Positions 5,312 to 49,935 of a stretch of DNA of 50,152 nucleotides are shown in pieces. This DNA comes from Planctomycetota bacterium. GTDB lineage: Bacteria; Planctomycetota; J058. The position numbers were made by a program, and so were the translations under genes. Location: contig JAESQQ010000351.1 in the NCBI GenBank assembly GCA_016765095.1, positions 1-50,152 on the forward strand, written 5' to 3'. Under the pieces are notes generated by a model. It did not search any database and was not told where the DNA came from. It was given only the letters and a program-made list of their open reading frames with translations. Numbering within the stretch: the stretch's first letter is position 1; every line of letters starts with the position of its first letter.

Positions 5312-5876
5312 TAGACGTGAGCACGAGCCGCGCTTGGCCCATCTCGCTCGCGTCGGCGAGGAGCAGGAGCGCCGCAGCGACGGGGCTGTCCTGCAACATG
5401 TGTGAAGCGAGGTAACCCTCCTCGGAGTAAAGACGCTTGAGGCGGTGGTCGAAGCGAGCGGCGTGGGCCAGGCCGGGGTCGTAGCAGGGGAACGCCCGCG
5501 CGAATGAGATCAGCCGGAGCAGCTTCGGGCTCGGCGCTTGGAAGTGTCGGAGGAGCGCCTCGCGCTCGGCCGTCTGCTTGAAGGCCTTGGCGATTCCAAC
5601 GCGCCAATTCTGTTGCTTGGTCGCGGCCCGCTTCCACGCTTCGGCCATGTTCCGGGGCTTGGGCATCGGCGGAACGACGTTGTCGGGGTCCGCCCCCGGC
5701 TGGGGCCGAACCGCTGCCGCCGGACCCTTGAGCGGGACTTGCTGCTTCGCGGATGGCGAGCTCGCCGGTGGCGGCGAGCTGACGACCGCCGTCGATCCGC
5801 TCGGGCACCCAAAGGCGAGCGGCACCCAGCAAGCGAGGGCCAACGCTCGGGGGAGAGTTCGCTTGGCTCGACTCAC
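5220..5876 (-). CDS. Lipoprotein of unknown function, probably frameshifted at its 3' end
   Basis: The GTG at 5876 overlaps the stop of the acyl-CoA dehydrogenase gene (GTGA). It is followed by a lipoprotein signal: basic start, hydrophobic core and a LAFGC lipobox with Cys at about residue 24. The mature part has a Ser/Pro-rich linker, then a helical domain (residues 80-180) containing AEAWKRAATKQQNWR and RFDHRLKRLYSEEGYLASHML, which look like helical repeats. After about residue 205 the frame becomes Arg/Ser-rich and ends at 5220. The helical, TPR-like sequence continues in another frame down to 4982. Exported and membrane-tethered; function unknown. Confidence 0.6.
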   Translation of the reverse strand: MSRAKRTLPRALALACWVPLAFGCPSGSTAVVSSPPPASSPSAKQQVPLKGPAAAVRPQPGADPDNVVPPMPKPRNMAEAWKRAATKQQNWRVGIAKAFKQTAEREALLRHFQAPSPKLLRLISFARAFPCYDPGLAHAARFDHRLKRLYSEEGYLASHMLQDSPVAAALLLLADASEMGQARLVLTSSGWQSPRQGLADGSYAEARQGLPRRSRARS

Positions 5877-43022: not shown

Positions 43023-45470
43023 TCAGCGCTCCGAGCTCCCTCGCTCGGCGGCGATCGTCTCCTCGAGCGTCTCCAGTCGCTCCCTGGCTGTGGGGACTTC
43101 GCGTCGGATCGCCTCAATGATCCAGCGGCGGGACTCTTGAAAATCGCGCTCTCCGCCCAGCCCGAGGCGATAGAGGTTCGCGAGCGGGAGCATCGCCTTC
43201 GAGACATGGGCCTTGGCCGCGATCTCGTAGTGGAATCGGGCTCGGGAGAGATCTTGGGGCAAGACCTTTCCGCTCAGTCGCAGGTTCCCAAGCGTGCAGT
43301 GGGAGGCGGGGTCGCCCTCCTTGGCGAGGGCCTCGAACACCTCGAGGGCGTGGGCTTGGTCCTGGGGGAGTCCCTTGCCCTCTAGCTCGGCCATGGCCAA
43401 CCCATGGCGCGCTCGAGGCGATCCCTTGGCCGCCGCCCGGCGAAACCACTTCACGGCCAAGGCGTAGTCCGTCCTTGCGCCGGCGCCTGTGTAGTAGACG
43501 GTCGCCACGTTGTGAGCGGAGTCGAGGTCGCCGTCCTCGGCGGCAGCCAGGCCCCAGCCCAGCCCTACCTCCCAGTCGGACGGGCTCCGCGCGCTGTCGA
43601 GGAGGTAGCGGGAGTAGTTGGCCATGGCCTCGAGGTTGCCGAGGCGCGACGCGCGGAGGAGCCAGGCCAGGCCGAGTTGCTCGTCGCGGGGGCGGCCGAA
43701 ATCGCCTCGGAACGAAATCCAGGCCAGCTTGACCATGGCGTCGGTGTCAGCCCGCTTGGCCAAAACGAGCAGGAGGGCCAGCCCCCGCCGTTGATCCTGG
43801 CCGCTTGATCCTGGCGCCATTAGCTGCCGAGCCCGGATCGCAAGCGCGTCGATCCAGTCGGCGTCTGCGGCGCGCTTTAAGTAGAACCCCGCCCGCTCCT
43901 CGTTCTTGGACCGGCCCAGGCCGTGGCGGTGGAGCAAGCAGAGCACAAGGTCTGCCCCCGCGTTTCCGGACCGAGCCAGGCGCTCGAGCTGGGTGTTGGT
44001 CTTGGCGATCTCGCCGGCTCGTCGCCTGAGCACCTGGTCCTGGATCAGCGAGTAGAGCGCCATGGCGTCTCCACCCTCGCCCGCAGAGCGGTAGAACTCG
44101 CGCGCGCGCCTGGCGTCTTTGCGCAGGCCGCCAAAGCCCGACGCGTGAAAGTGGCCCAGGCCTCGCAGTGCCCGGGCGGATCCCAGGCTCGCCCCGCGCT
44201 CGAGCCATACCAAGGCTTCGGCTTGGTCCATTGTTCGGTCGTAGCTTGCGCCACGGCGGCGCATGAAAAGTCCAGCCAGGACGGAGTGAGCCTCGCTGTG
44301 GCCGCCCTCCGCGGCTCGCCTGAGCCAGGCGGCTGAGGCGTCTAGGTCCTGCTCCAGCTCGACTCCGACCATCAGCGCCTCCCCGAGCTCGAAGCAGGCC
44401 TCGGCGTCTCCCCTCTGGGCGCGCTGGAGAAGTGCTGCGAGCGGGCTCTGAGGGGTCTGGCTCGGAGTCGGCGTCGCTGTCGGCGAGACCGGAGCGTGTG
44501 TGTTGGCGCGGGAAGCGGAGGGGGGTCCTGCGCTCGGGGTCAGGACGAGAGCCACCGTGACGGCGGCTCCTGCGAGGAGGGCCGCTCCCCCGGCGATCCA
44601 GATCAGCGGGGCCCTCGACGAAACGGACCCGCCCCCGAGCGCGCTCAGCGCGCGTTGGACCTCGGCTCCGTCGGCGAAGCGGGCCTGGGGATCCTTCTCG
44701 AGGCAACGCAGGACGAGCGCTTCGAGCTCTGGGGGGACCTCAGGGCGCAGCTCGCGGATCGGGAGGGGCGGTTGGTTCTCGGTCGCGACGACTGTCTCCC
44801 AAAAAGTCGCGCCGGTCACGGGGGGCTCGCCGGTGAGGGCGGCGTAGAGGAGGGCCCCCAAGCCGTAGACGTCGGTGAAGGGGCCGCTCGGGCGCCCTGC
44901 CGCTTGCTCGGGCGCCCAATAGCCTGGCGTCCCGAGCATGGCTCCGGTCTTAGAGAGGGCTTGGCTCTGTTGGACCTCGAGGTCCTTGGTCAGTCCGAAG
45001 TCAGTCAGGACCCAGTGGGCGAGGCCTCCTCCCTTTTGGAGGAGCACGTTGTCGGGCTTGAGGTCGCGGTGGATCAGGCCTTCGCCGTGAATGTGACTCA
45101 GCGCGGCCGAGAGCTGCTCGGCGAGGTCCCAGGCTTCGTCGATCGGGAGAGGGCCCGTGCGGGACAGGCGCTGCGCCAGGTCCTCGCCGCTCATGAGCGG
45201 CATCGCGTACCATGGGGCCCCGTCGGGTTCTTCGCCAGCGTCGAGGACGCTCAGCACGTTGTCGTGGCGCAGCCGCTGGAGCGCGCCCAGTTCGCGACGG
45301 AATCGCTCGCGCTGGGTCGCGCCGGCGCGTCCACCCGCGAGGAGGACCTTGATCGCGACTTCGACGCCCGTCTTGTGTCGGGCCCGATAGACCGCGCCCA
45401 TGCCGCCCTTGCCGATCTTGGCCAGGACCTCATAGGGGCCGATCCAACGCGAGGCTTGGGGTGCGTCCAC
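43023..45470 (-). CDS. Membrane Ser/Thr kinase with Sel1-like repeats
   Basis: The kinase occupies residues 10-275: GKGGMGAVYRA, VAIKVLL, LIHRDLKPDNVLL, LTDFGLTK and WAPEQ. One transmembrane helix (about 283-305, IWIAGGAALLAGAAVTVALVL) and a Pro/Thr linker follow. About twelve Sel1-like repeats (SLRs) then make up the extracytoplasmic part, for example AECFELGEALMVG..., AEALVWLERGASLGSARALRGLG and AVKWFRRAAAKGSPRARHGLAM. SLRs are helical protein-binding repeats. GTG at 45470 is 33 bases after the preceding kinase gene's stop, so the two kinases are probably co-expressed. Confidence 0.9.
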   Translation of the reverse strand: MDAPQASRWIGPYEVLAKIGKGGMGAVYRARHKTGVEVAIKVLLAGGRAGATQRERFRRELGALQRLRHDNVLSVLDAGEEPDGAPWYAMPLMSGEDLAQRLSRTGPLPIDEAWDLAEQLSAALSHIHGEGLIHRDLKPDNVLLQKGGGLAHWVLTDFGLTKDLEVQQSQALSKTGAMLGTPGYWAPEQAAGRPSGPFTDVYGLGALLYAALTGEPPVTGATFWETVVATENQPPLPIRELRPEVPPELEALVLRCLEKDPQARFADGAEVQRALSALGGGSVSSRAPLIWIAGGAALLAGAAVTVALVLTPSAGPPSASRANTHAPVSPTATPTPSQTPQSPLAALLQRAQRGDAEACFELGEALMVGVELEQDLDASAAWLRRAAEGGHSEAHSVLAGLFMRRRGASYDRTMDQAEALVWLERGASLGSARALRGLGHFHASGFGGLRKDARRAREFYRSAGEGGDAMALYSLIQDQVLRRRAGEIAKTNTQLERLARSGNAGADLVLCLLHRHGLGRSKNEERAGFYLKRAADADWIDALAIRARQLMAPGSSGQDQRRGLALLLVLAKRADTDAMVKLAWISFRGDFGRPRDEQLGLAWLLRASRLGNLEAMANYSRYLLDSARSPSDWEVGLGWGLAAAEDGDLDSAHNVATVYYTGAGARTDYALAVKWFRRAAAKGSPRARHGLAMAELEGKGLPQDQAHALEVFEALAKEGDPASHCTLGNLRLSGKVLPQDLSRARFHYEIAAKAHVSKAMLPLANLYRLGLGGERDFQESRRWIIEAIRREVPTARERLETLEETIAAERGSSER

Positions 45471-45503: not shown

Positions 45504-47582
45504 CTACTCTGCCGCCGTGGACCAGAGCTCCCACTTGCCGGTTCGAGTCCCCCTCAAGAGGAGCAGGTCGTCGGCTGAGATCGTGAGGCTCTCGGTCTCG
45601 TCGGAGAGTGGAATCGTTCGCCGCAGGACTCGCTGGCCCCAGTCGATCTCGAGGAGTGAGCTCCCGACCTCCTGGCTGTTGAGCGCCACGTAGAGCGTCT
45701 CGCCGCTGGAGTCGAACGCCAGCGCCTGAACGCCAGCGGTGAAGGTTCGGTTCAAGATGTCGCCCGTGGCGAAGGCGGGCACGCTCTCCTGGGTCTGGAG
45801 GTCCAGGTCGAAGCGGACCAGATCGCCCGAGGACACGCCGAGCAGGATTCGATCCTCGAGGCGCTCGAGCACGAGGGTCAGGGGAGCGCTCGGGGCCTTG
45901 AGCAGCGAGCGGACGCTCAGCTCGCCGGTCGCAGCGTCGAACCCAAGGACTTCGCTCCGGAGCGTCGTGAAGGAGTTCGCCACGCTGTCCCCGACCCCCA
46001 CGAACACCCGCTCGCCCTTGGAGCCGAACACGACTGAGTAGGGCCGCGCAGGCAGCGGGGAGGTGTGTTCGAGCGGCCCGACTGGCCAGCGAACGAGGAG
46101 GAGCTTCTTGTCCGCAGTGATCACGGCGAGTCGATCGCCGCGGGGAGAGAGCGCGACCTGGTAGGGAGCCTGGTCTGCGAGTTCGAGGAGAGGCGGGGCG
46201 TCGGCTCCCTGAGGTCCCAAGGAGAAGAAGCGCAGCGGCGGCGTCGACCACCAGGTCGGGCCGCCTTTGCTCGGCAGGACGCCGCACAGGACAGCCACCT
46301 CGACGGTCCACTCGAGTCGAGTTCCCAGCCAAGCCGTGACGATTGCCTTCCCGGCGCCCTGGCCGACTCCCATCCGCACGCTCTGACTCGACGCGAGCAC
46401 GCGACCGTCGGGAGCAAAGGAGGCCTTGACGTGTCCGAAAGGGCGGGCGAGGTCTCCACTCCTCAGAGGACGCTTCCGCCCTCGGCTCAGACTCCGAAGG
46501 ATTCGACCGGCCGAGGCGTGCTTGGAATTGCGCGTCAGCCAGCGTCGGCTGGCCCGGTAGCGCTCGAGCGGGTCGGAGAGGCGGGCCAGGTCTTCGTAGG
46601 TCTGGACCGGTGCGATCGGAGAGGCAGTCGTCGAAACGAGCGGAGAGGCAGTCGGCGACGCGCGGGACGTGCGCTGAGGCGTGGGCGAGGAAGCTGTCGG
46701 GGGAACGAGCTGAGCGGCCGTGACCCCCACGATCGCGAGCACGGCGAGGGCCCCTAAGCCCAGGAGCGCCAGGGGAGGCCTCGACTCTCGGCGGTCACCC
46801 GCGAGATACGCGTCGAGGGCGTCGGCGAACGCGTCGCCGTCCGCGTAACGACGGGCAGGGTCTTTCTCGAGGGCCCGCCGGGCGATCTCAACGAGAGCCT
46901 TGGGGGCCTTTCGCTCGGGGGCGATCCGCGGGAAGGGAGCCTCCAACACCTGGACGCTGAGCGTCACGAGGGACTCGCCGGTGTAAGGGGGGAGGCCCGC
47001 GAGGACTTCGTAGAGCATGGCCCCCAGCGCCCACACGTCCGTCGCGGGCCCAACTCGATCGCGCTGACCGCCGAGGGTCTCGGGGGCCATGTAGAGGGGC
47101 GTCCCCAAGATCGTGCCCGTGACCGTGAGTTGGTCGAGGCCCTTGCAGCCGGCGATGCCGAAGTCGGCGACCTTGGCTTGGCCGTGCACGTCGACCAAGA
47201 CGTTCTCGGGCTTCACGTCTCGGTGCACGATTCCCCGGGCGTGGGCGTGGCCGAGTCCGCGAGCCGTGTCGCGGAGGAGCTGCACGGCGTGGGGGAGGGG
47301 ACAGCTCGCGCGGAGCAGGTCGTCGAGGGTCTGCCCCCCTTCGATCAGCTCGTAGACCAAGCAAGGGCGCCCCTCCCGGACTCCGCTCGCGTGGACCCGC
47401 ACGATCGAGGGGTGGTCGAGGCGCGCGGAGAGGACACCCTCGCGCTCGAAGCGCTCGACGGAGCCAGAGTTGAGGATCTTGAGCGCGACGTCGCGGCCGC
47501 TGGCCGGGTCAAAGGCCCGATAGACGGTGCCCATGGCACCTCGGCCAAGCTCCTCGAGCAGCCTGAGAGTCGCTAGGTCCAT
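45504..47582 (-). CDS. Membrane Ser/Thr kinase with beta-propeller sensor
   Basis: The kinase covers residues 5-265: GRGAMGTVYRA, VALKIL, IVHRDVKPENVLV, VADFGIAG and MAPETL. A transmembrane helix (about 268-292) and a Ser/Thr/Pro-rich linker lead to a roughly 330-residue extracytoplasmic domain. Its repeated strands (VALSPRGDRLAVITADKKLLLV, YSVVFGSKGERVFVGVG, VQALAFDSSGETLYVALN) indicate a WD40-type propeller. The ATG at 47582 has only a weak AGG upstream. It is the first gene of a two-kinase operon with 43023-45470. Confidence 0.9.
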   Translation of the reverse strand: MDLATLRLLEELGRGAMGTVYRAFDPASGRDVALKILNSGSVERFEREGVLSARLDHPSIVRVHASGVREGRPCLVYELIEGGQTLDDLLRASCPLPHAVQLLRDTARGLGHAHARGIVHRDVKPENVLVDVHGQAKVADFGIAGCKGLDQLTVTGTILGTPLYMAPETLGGQRDRVGPATDVWALGAMLYEVLAGLPPYTGESLVTLSVQVLEAPFPRIAPERKAPKALVEIARRALEKDPARRYADGDAFADALDAYLAGDRRESRPPLALLGLGALAVLAIVGVTAAQLVPPTASSPTPQRTSRASPTASPLVSTTASPIAPVQTYEDLARLSDPLERYRASRRWLTRNSKHASAGRILRSLSRGRKRPLRSGDLARPFGHVKASFAPDGRVLASSQSVRMGVGQGAGKAIVTAWLGTRLEWTVEVAVLCGVLPSKGGPTWWSTPPLRFFSLGPQGADAPPLLELADQAPYQVALSPRGDRLAVITADKKLLLVRWPVGPLEHTSPLPARPYSVVFGSKGERVFVGVGDSVANSFTTLRSEVLGFDAATGELSVRSLLKAPSAPLTLVLERLEDRILLGVSSGDLVRFDLDLQTQESVPAFATGDILNRTFTAGVQALAFDSSGETLYVALNSQEVGSSLLEIDWGQRVLRRTIPLSDETESLTISADDLLLLRGTRTGKWELWSTAAE

Positions 47583-48891: not shown

Positions 48892-48929
48892 TGGGGCAGC
48901 CCCCCCAAAATTTCATTGAAAGGACTCAC

Positions 48930-49862
48930 ATGAGAATGCAGGCGTTGGCCGTTTCGGCGGCCCTCCTGGTGTGCACAGGCGCACCCGCCTCCGCGCAAGA
49001 CCTCGAGAAGAAGCTCGAGAAGAAGCTCGCGGAGAAGTGGATCAACAGCCCCAAGTGGCACACCGACTACGACACGGCCAAGGCCGAGGCCAAGAAGAGC
49101 GGGAAGATCATTTTTGGCTACTTCACCCGCTCCTATTCCTACTGACCCCCTTGCGCAAGTCTGGAGAGCGGTCCGCTCTCCAGCCCCGAGTTCAAGGAGT
49201 TCGCCAAGGAGGTCGTGCTCTTCTGCAGCATCATGAGCAGGGTTCCAGGTCGGAAGAACGACGCTCTTCTCAACGAGAAGGGTGGGCGCGGCTTCCCCTA
49301 CTTGGTCTACATGGACGCTGCGGGCGAGGTGATCGGCAAGCCGTCTGGCCGCACGGTAGGGGCCTTCCGGAAGACCGCGCGCTACTTGACGCTCAAGAAC
49401 AAGAAGGACCGCAGCACGTCTGAGGAGGTCGAGCTGATTCAGCTCGGGCTCGCTATGGGCAAGCTCGACCCCGACAAGGCAAAGGAGCAGGCCGCAGCGC
49501 TCAAGCTCAACGGCGCCCAAAAGGCTTTGATCAAGAAGGCGATCAAGGTCGCGGTCGGCCAGAACAAGGCTCGGGCCTTGCTCGGGCAGGTCAAGTCTCA
49601 ATCGGACGTGCAATCCAAGGGCGCCCAAGTCGGCGAGAAGCTCTGGGCTCTCTATCAGGAGGGCGTTCGCTTCGGTCCGGGAGCCCGCGAGGGCATGTCC
49701 ATGGCTCAGTTGATCATGACCTACGGCCTCAGCAGCAAGAAGCTTGAGCCGGCGGAAGCCGGGCTCAAGGACCTGAAGATCGCCCTCGCCGGCAACCGCC
49801 GCGCGCAGGGATTCCTGAAGCAAATGGAGCAACAGGTCGAAGCGTTGCGGGGCTCCAAGTAG
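48930..49862 (+). CDS. Probable selenoprotein: secreted thioredoxin-like protein with Sec-Pro-Pro-Cys motif (TGA at 49143-49145 read as Sec)
   Basis: The start ATG has AAAGGA about 6 bases upstream. A Sec signal peptide (residues 1-23, ending ASAQ) and a helical DLEKKLEKK lead follow. KSGKIIFGYFTRSYSY is the thioredoxin first strand running into the active site. The next codon is TGA (codon 72), then CCC CCT TGC: Sec72-Pro-Pro-Cys75. The same frame continues without a break through GPLSSPEFKEFAKEVVLF, GGRGFPYLVYMDAAGEVIG (cis-Pro region) and a 170-residue helical C-terminus. The total is 310 residues. The hairpin after the TGA fits a bacterial SECIS. Without readthrough, the first 71 residues would end at the active site and the rest would lack a proper start. 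The likely role is thiol/disulfide or peroxide chemistry outside the cytosol. Confidence 0.85.
49143..49183 (+). promoter_or_regulatory. Sec codon and putative bacterial SECIS hairpin
   Basis: TGA at 49143-49145 is followed 15 bases later by a perfect 9-bp stem: ctggagagc (49161-49169) and gctctccag (49175-49183). The apical loop is ggtcc (49170-49174). The loop begins 24 bases after the TGA, inside the 16-37-base window used for bacterial SECIS models. It opens with GG and contains GGTC, the same core as the SelB-binding loop of E. coli fdhF. Confidence 0.85.
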
Positions 49863-49910: not shown

Positions 49911-49935
49911 AGGGCGCGCCTGTTGGGCGCGCCCT
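49911..49935 (+). terminator. Rho-independent terminator after the selenoprotein gene
   Basis: agggcgcgcc (49911-49920) pairs fully with ggcgcgccct (49926-49935) around a 5-base loop, followed by ttctc. A second small hairpin (agccgc/gcggct, 49877-49893) lies just upstream, 15 bases after the stop codon. Confidence 0.8.

Follow-up and report, generated by a model that had tools for sequence, protein, structure and literature searches.

A conserved in-frame TGA and a SECIS hairpin point to a thioredoxin-fold selenoprotein family in Planctomycetota

The window, that is, the whole stretch of 50,152 nucleotides of a Planctomycetota genome analysed here, harbors close to its end a plus-strand frame (48930-49862) that, with TGA translated as U, encodes 310 amino acids and contains one in-frame TGA (49143-49145), corresponding to codon 72. 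In the protein context ...YFTRSYSY-U-PPC... this TGA occupies the first position of a U-P-P-C thioredoxin motif. The features of the locus are the following:

48919..48924, plus strand: Shine-Dalgarno-like AAAGGA, 5 nt before the ATG, from sequence inspection; a plausible candidate
48930..49862, plus strand: complete gene of 310 aa, almost certainly for a selenoprotein, with selenocysteine (Sec) at residue 72; TGA=U translation and alignment with full-length orthologues having TGA at the same codon
48930..48995, plus strand: probable Sec-type signal peptide, residues 1-22, with a hydrophobic core and A-S-A before Q23, read by eye
49056..49319, plus strand: thioredoxin-fold domain, residues 43-130; Pfam Thioredoxin_7, relatives and PDB matches
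49143..49145, plus strand: in-frame TGA, most probably read as selenocysteine (U72); TGA in 90 and TGC in 3 of 93 distinct relatives
49152..49154, plus strand: Cys75, presumed resolving cysteine of U-x-x-C; invariant in the 34-member alignment
49161..49183, plus strand: SECIS hairpin with a 9-bp stem and the loop GGTCC at 49170-49174; folding, conservation against a codon-preserving null, and covariation
49296..49298, plus strand: Pro123, presumed cis-proline facing the active site; invariant within G-F-P in 34 members, the cis geometry being suggested by the thioredoxin fold
49356..49856, plus strand: C-terminal helical domain, residues 143-309; predicted helices and weak profile matches to helical-repeat chains
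49911..49935, strand not assigned: 10-bp inverted repeat shortly past the stop codon, a possible terminator; the terminator-like call is on the minus strand only, and the number of such calls in the window is near chance

Read with translation table 11, the frame is split into an ATG-initiated part (48930-49145, 71 aa) and a GTG-initiated one (49215-49862, 215 aa), exactly the stub and the downstream portion that a first-pass annotation of this DNA had expected from a gene caller. Codon-position GC content amounts to 0.48/0.44/0.89 upstream of the TGA, 0.62/0.42/0.85 downstream of it, and 0.61/0.52/0.83 in the stretch from the TGA to the GTG at 49215; the third-position values are thus high before the TGA, after it and up to the GTG, so that the frame looks coding through the TGA. 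Translation and codon-position GC therefore bear out the first-pass description of a TGA at the first position of a UPPC motif with coding sequence on both sides. That annotation had also regarded TGA as a normal stop elsewhere in the window: TGA terminates 8 of the 15 long ORFs and, among the examples given, the TGA is on the plus strand at 806 and 31211 and on the minus strand at 5873-5875.

The orthologues repeat the N-terminal hydrophobic stretch followed by AxA-Q, and the protein is probably exported, as judged from a signal peptide recognized by eye. Upstream of the selenoprotein gene, on the minus strand, two large protein-kinase-like genes lie next to each other (43023-45470 and 45504-47582), one of which continues, by eye, into Sel1-like repeats. 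The inspection of 23 loci of the family revealed no conserved neighbour gene or operon partner; the neighbours that recur are the family itself, kinase-like genes and an opposite-strand ORF overlapping the gene.

A scan of a sequence collection extending beyond Planctomycetota, which used a one-protein query and thus reaches close relatives alone, retrieved two full-length relatives (45-46% identity) from Planctomycetota contigs; in both, the same codon is TGA. The class to which the window belongs comprises 12 genomes, seven of which, the window's genome included, harbor a full-length TGA copy. When 392 Planctomycetota genomes were probed with a seven-sequence profile, 139 matches were obtained from 86 genomes; only 10 of the 139 are free of any internal stop codon, and all the others contain TGA. 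Most of these matches could be read at the Sec column, seven fragments gapped there being left out of the count, and after the removal of copies the column holds TGA in 90 and TGC (Cys) in 3 of 93 distinct genes. The first-pass annotation had proposed checking whether homologues align Sec or Cys at position 72, and this is what they do; in addition, the family extends through the phylum and hardly ever has the Cys form. Three further members have Tyr, Ser or Leu at this column and look like dead paralogues from their sequences.

The relatives are 22-47% identical to the window protein and the median length of the end branches is 0.54 changes per column. The length after Sec is constant across the family (about 230-280 residues). 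The columns invariant in 34 members are Y64, F65, residue 72 (Sec or Cys), C75, E79, P123 and G132, which thus include the active site, the resolving cysteine and the proline expected opposite the active site. Tandem copies, two or three in a row and mostly all with TGA, were observed at several loci (L104/L091 in G121:C29, L099/L130 in G382:C77, L110 in G212, L115 in G072 and L133 in G115); at L133 the Sec copy adjoins a copy with Tyr at the Sec position. Moreover, one genome with the Sec form also harbors a full-length paralogue (L036, G001:C231) whose active site is lost (SDRPSAYC compared with SYxYUPPC).

Downstream of the TGA lies the hairpin CTGGAGAGC-GGTCC-GCTCTCCAG (49161-49183), with stem arms at 49161-49169 and 49175-49183 and the loop at 49170-49174. 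The stem starts 15 nt and the loop 24 nt after the TGA, and the perfect 9-bp stem, the loop and both spacings are present as first described. The 23-nt hairpin alone folds at -16.9 kcal/mol (z -4.6), with no shuffle as good; in its minimum free energy (MFE) fold the loop has 3 nt, compared with the 5 of GGTCC, and the stem 9-10 bp. The published model of the bacterial SECIS has a loop of 3-9 nt, a stem of 4-16 bp, a distance of 16-37 nt from the UGA, G in the first two loop positions and an MFE of -7.5 kcal/mol or lower (PMC13188914), and the window hairpin lies within all four constraints of that model.

The hairpin is shared by the family. The loop, taken at a constant spacing from the TGA, begins with G in 80 of the 90 TGA genes and has G as its second nucleotide in 88 of them. 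Loop size varies, the stem closing on 5 nt in some genes and on 3 nt in others; a single 5-nt register, in which 510 of 630 inner pairs are formed across the 90 TGA genes, thus understates the pairing, because many genes use the 3-nt loop instead. Both registers were therefore allowed, in the data and in the null alike, the null consisting of synonymous codons redrawn from each gene's own usage (1000 draws). On this basis 607 of 630 inner pairs are formed against 424±9 under the null, and all 7 bp of the stem are present in 73 of the 90 TGA genes, against 3.9±1.9 expected (maximum 11 in 1000 draws), with fewer than six of the seven pairs in only four genes. Furthermore, in a gapless alignment of 48 sequences four pairs of the 5-nt register have changed on both sides; double-sided change cells number 18 against 4.0±1.8 in shuffled data, and none of 500 shuffles scored as high. 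A shift of the 3' side by -2 likewise gives a good score in the covariation analysis, because it corresponds to the 3-nt-loop register. The three Cys (TGC) genes pair 4 or 5 of nine positions in the 5-nt register, and the stem thus seems not to be kept where the TGA is absent, as far as so very few sequences can indicate.

These data bear on the idea that the TGA is a nonsense mutation in a pseudogene, or a TGC or TGG misread in the assembly. The window's genome is a fragmented draft in which selA and selC were not found (see below), which would suit such an origin; the same codon, however, is TGA in 90 distinct genes, nearly all from separate genomes and coding at full length beyond it, and the hairpin follows the TGA at a constant spacing. 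We consider a pseudogene or an error very improbable, the 90 aligned TGA genes ruling out both as explanations of the family.

As for the decoding machinery, whose genes the first-pass annotation had suggested looking for, the window's genome is a draft of 8.57 Mb in 987 contigs, 84% complete. It contains selB over the cut-off and selD over the cut-off, the latter partial and running off a contig end, whereas neither selA nor tRNA-Sec (selC) was found in this 84%-complete draft; the matches to the tRNA-Sec model are weak and correspond to ordinary tRNAs, mostly tRNA-Ser. The expectation of a full set was thus borne out for selB and in part for selD, and not for selA and selC, though most sister genomes possess the latter two: within the class, selA is present in 9 of 12 genomes and a true tRNA-Sec with the anticodon TCA in 8 of 12. 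The incompleteness of the assembly is the simplest explanation for the two missing genes. The gene neighbouring selC in a genome of the same genus has a homologue (51% identity) in the window's genome with no tRNA-Sec beside it, which settles nothing, because the compared genomes do not share a common arrangement of genes around selC. Across the phylum, selA was found in 78 of 86 family-positive and in 163 of 306 family-negative genomes (odds ratio 8.6, p = 2e-11), a p-value that is too small because the genomes are related, although the direction is clear. Moreover, the window's genome encodes one more selenoprotein, which belongs to the catalogued VPGUxxT type 2 (285 bits, cut-off 275); this member (L009, G000:C518, 2-1078, minus strand) has an in-frame TGA and a C-terminal part that is weakly MsrA-like.

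The missing selC would also be compatible with a UGA that does not specify Sec but has been reassigned, or at which an ordinary tRNA allows readthrough. Against this, TGA closes over half of the long ORFs of the window, the alternative residue at the column is Cys in a CxxC and not Trp, the SECIS hairpin is conserved and selB is present. The first-pass annotation had judged codon reassignment unlikely, and the aligned TGA genes and the normal TGA stops lead us to reject it; any remaining chance is slight. The frame 48930-49862 thus almost certainly encodes a selenoprotein in which UGA is read as selenocysteine, and the original proposal of a thioredoxin-like selenoprotein with an embedded SECIS is supported by the aligned TGA, the conserved hairpin and selB.

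Residues 43-130 match Pfam Thioredoxin_7 (PF13899; 28.8 bits, cut-off 27), a domain also matched by 30 of 34 relatives at E 0.001. By profile, the nearest solved structures are DsbH (2ju5, E 2.4e-8) and DsbD-gamma; these two are also the top fold matches of a predicted model of moderate quality (pLDDT 77, built from three sequences), no Foldseek match reaching E 0.001. The C-terminal portion had been called unfamiliar, and no Pfam family was found for it when the window protein and 34 relatives were scored; this description can now be refined, since a helical, repeat-like domain of roughly 160 residues is conserved across the whole family. In the window protein residues 143-309 are predicted as helices (block pLDDT about 78-95), with weak profile matches to designed helical repeats only and weak fold matches to TPR-like proteins. 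On this basis, a repeat-like domain for binding is no more than a fair guess.

Starting from the recoding signals and their conservation, the fold family and the DsbD-type transmembrane domain encoded in the window's genome, we infer export, a direction of electron flow, a partner and a substrate as follows. SelB with Sec-tRNA-Sec, bound to the hairpin at 49161-49183, would decode the UGA at 49143 as selenocysteine, giving an active site in which U72-P-P-C75 would face Pro123. The selenolate of U72 would then, most likely, attack a partner protein in the periplasm at a disulfide or some other oxidised sulfur; the mixed selenenylsulfide formed with the partner would be resolved by C75, and a DsbD/CcdA-type electron carrier in the membrane would re-reduce the resulting Se-S bond. 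The DsbD-type membrane domain encoded in the genome could be the electron source. The helical C-terminal domain would probably recognise the partner or the substrate.

In principle, a genuine selenoprotein of this fold could perform another job, as a selenol peroxidase, a methionine-sulfoxide reductase, a selenium or metal carrier, or an isomerase/oxidase. Several activities are represented among selenoproteins with a thioredoxin fold (PMC13188914), and the lack of a conserved gene partner leaves the direction open; on the other hand, the nearest solved relatives are DsbH and DsbD-gamma, and a resolving cysteine three residues on, together with the invariant Pro123, fits a reductase of the dithiol type. 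Such another job is a possibility to be kept in mind, at a chance of roughly one in three, and a role as periplasmic disulfide reductase, as far as it can be read from sequence, is favoured with modest confidence.

As regards the history of the family, in an unrooted tree of 95 rows the three Cys forms lie on separate branches among Sec forms, and each of the three dead forms lies beside a Sec relative. This suggests an ancestral Sec with repeated losses, the events being two to three and too few for statistics. For nearly all selenoenzymes, Cys homologues are described as far outnumbering the Sec forms (PMC13188914), so that the prevalence of Sec over Cys in this family (90 to 3) is unusual. 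Taking these observations together, we think it likely, if well short of settled, that this is an unnamed family, widespread across Planctomycetota, almost exclusively of the Sec form and with an ancestral Sec lost repeatedly. If so, methods requiring Cys homologues could miss such a family. Any gene caller that stops at TGA splits or truncates the genes, and the family, present in about a fifth of the sampled planctomycete genomes, would thereby be mis-annotated. It also lends itself to a clean test of the reasons for which Sec is retained in some lineages, and can serve as a marker of Sec use in Planctomycetota.

The question is then whether the window protein belongs to an already named UxxC family. 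A UxxC selenoprotein of thioredoxin fold is a well-known kind, which limits the surprise, and the thioredoxin domain resembles those of DsbD-gamma and DsbH. Moreover, marine surveys include Trx-like 2 (cd02953) and Trx-like 3 among the UxxC selenoprotein families (PMC2398784), so that membership in one of these, or in a similar family, would make the present one not new. However, the members scored individually (P0001, L033 and L034) remain below the NCBIfam cut-offs, and 34 members match other families only, with weak E-values, the best being 1.5e-11 (DsbH). Trx-like 2, with its thiol:disulfide interchange proteins (cd02953), has UxxC in a thioredoxin-like domain but is mostly Cys, with 22 Sec and 2,098 Cys proteins in PMC2398784, a ratio far from that observed here; this comparison was made by description only. 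The constant length after Sec also speaks against a named family, which we regard as unlikely. The window family is probably unnamed and set apart from Trx-like 2 and Trx-like 3, as far as their descriptions go.

The inventory of 2026 comprises 119 prokaryotic selenoprotein families, several of which are UxxC proteins of thioredoxin fold (PMC13188914), and none of its entries was identifiable as the window family by domain or motif. Planctomycete selenoproteins were listed earlier in PMC4807772, whose candidate list lies outside this comparison, and no description of the family was found in the accessible literature on the motif and on planctomycete selenoproteins. NCBIfam and the 2026 inventory therefore support, within their coverage, the first-pass suggestion that the family may be undescribed.

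Other thioredoxin-like frames with internal TGA codons were seen in the genomes analysed. Two large ORFs of G007 (L040 and L043) have heme-binding-like CxxCH motifs (CMACH and CMGCH) in frame with a thioredoxin-like domain that holds an in-frame TGA (WFT-U-PFC and WFV-U-PFS, respectively); L040 has no NCBIfam match. L035 (G009:C69) is probably a secreted thioredoxin-like protein with an in-frame TGA in W-U-GPC, similar to the DsbD-like part of TsoB.

Among the known systems, the best NCBIfam and PDB matches of the window protein are DsbH (NF043050; 2ju5) and DsbD-gamma, with which it shares the thioredoxin-fold domain. DsbH and DsbD-gamma are Cys proteins, whereas the window protein has Sec and a long C-terminal domain, and its score against DsbH (NF043050) is 34.9 bits, under the cut-off of 190. 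A weak and partial similarity to the Trx7/PDZ domain (seleno)protein (NF041199) was detected in 12 of 34 members; that protein has a CxxU motif in the 2026 inventory (PMC13188914). The closest catalogued selenoprotein is VPGUxxT type 2 (NF041383; OS_HP5), which is homologous in the thioredoxin domain: the profile comparison gives a probability of 96.6% (E 6e-10), the match ending within the thioredoxin domain, and the two share Sec at the same place and the segments W..DYD.A..AK and GPLS. The window protein scores 16.4 bits against it, under the cut-off of 275, and the motifs differ, being VPGU in VPGUxxT type 2 and FTRSYxxUPPC in the window family (SYSYUPPC in the window protein itself).
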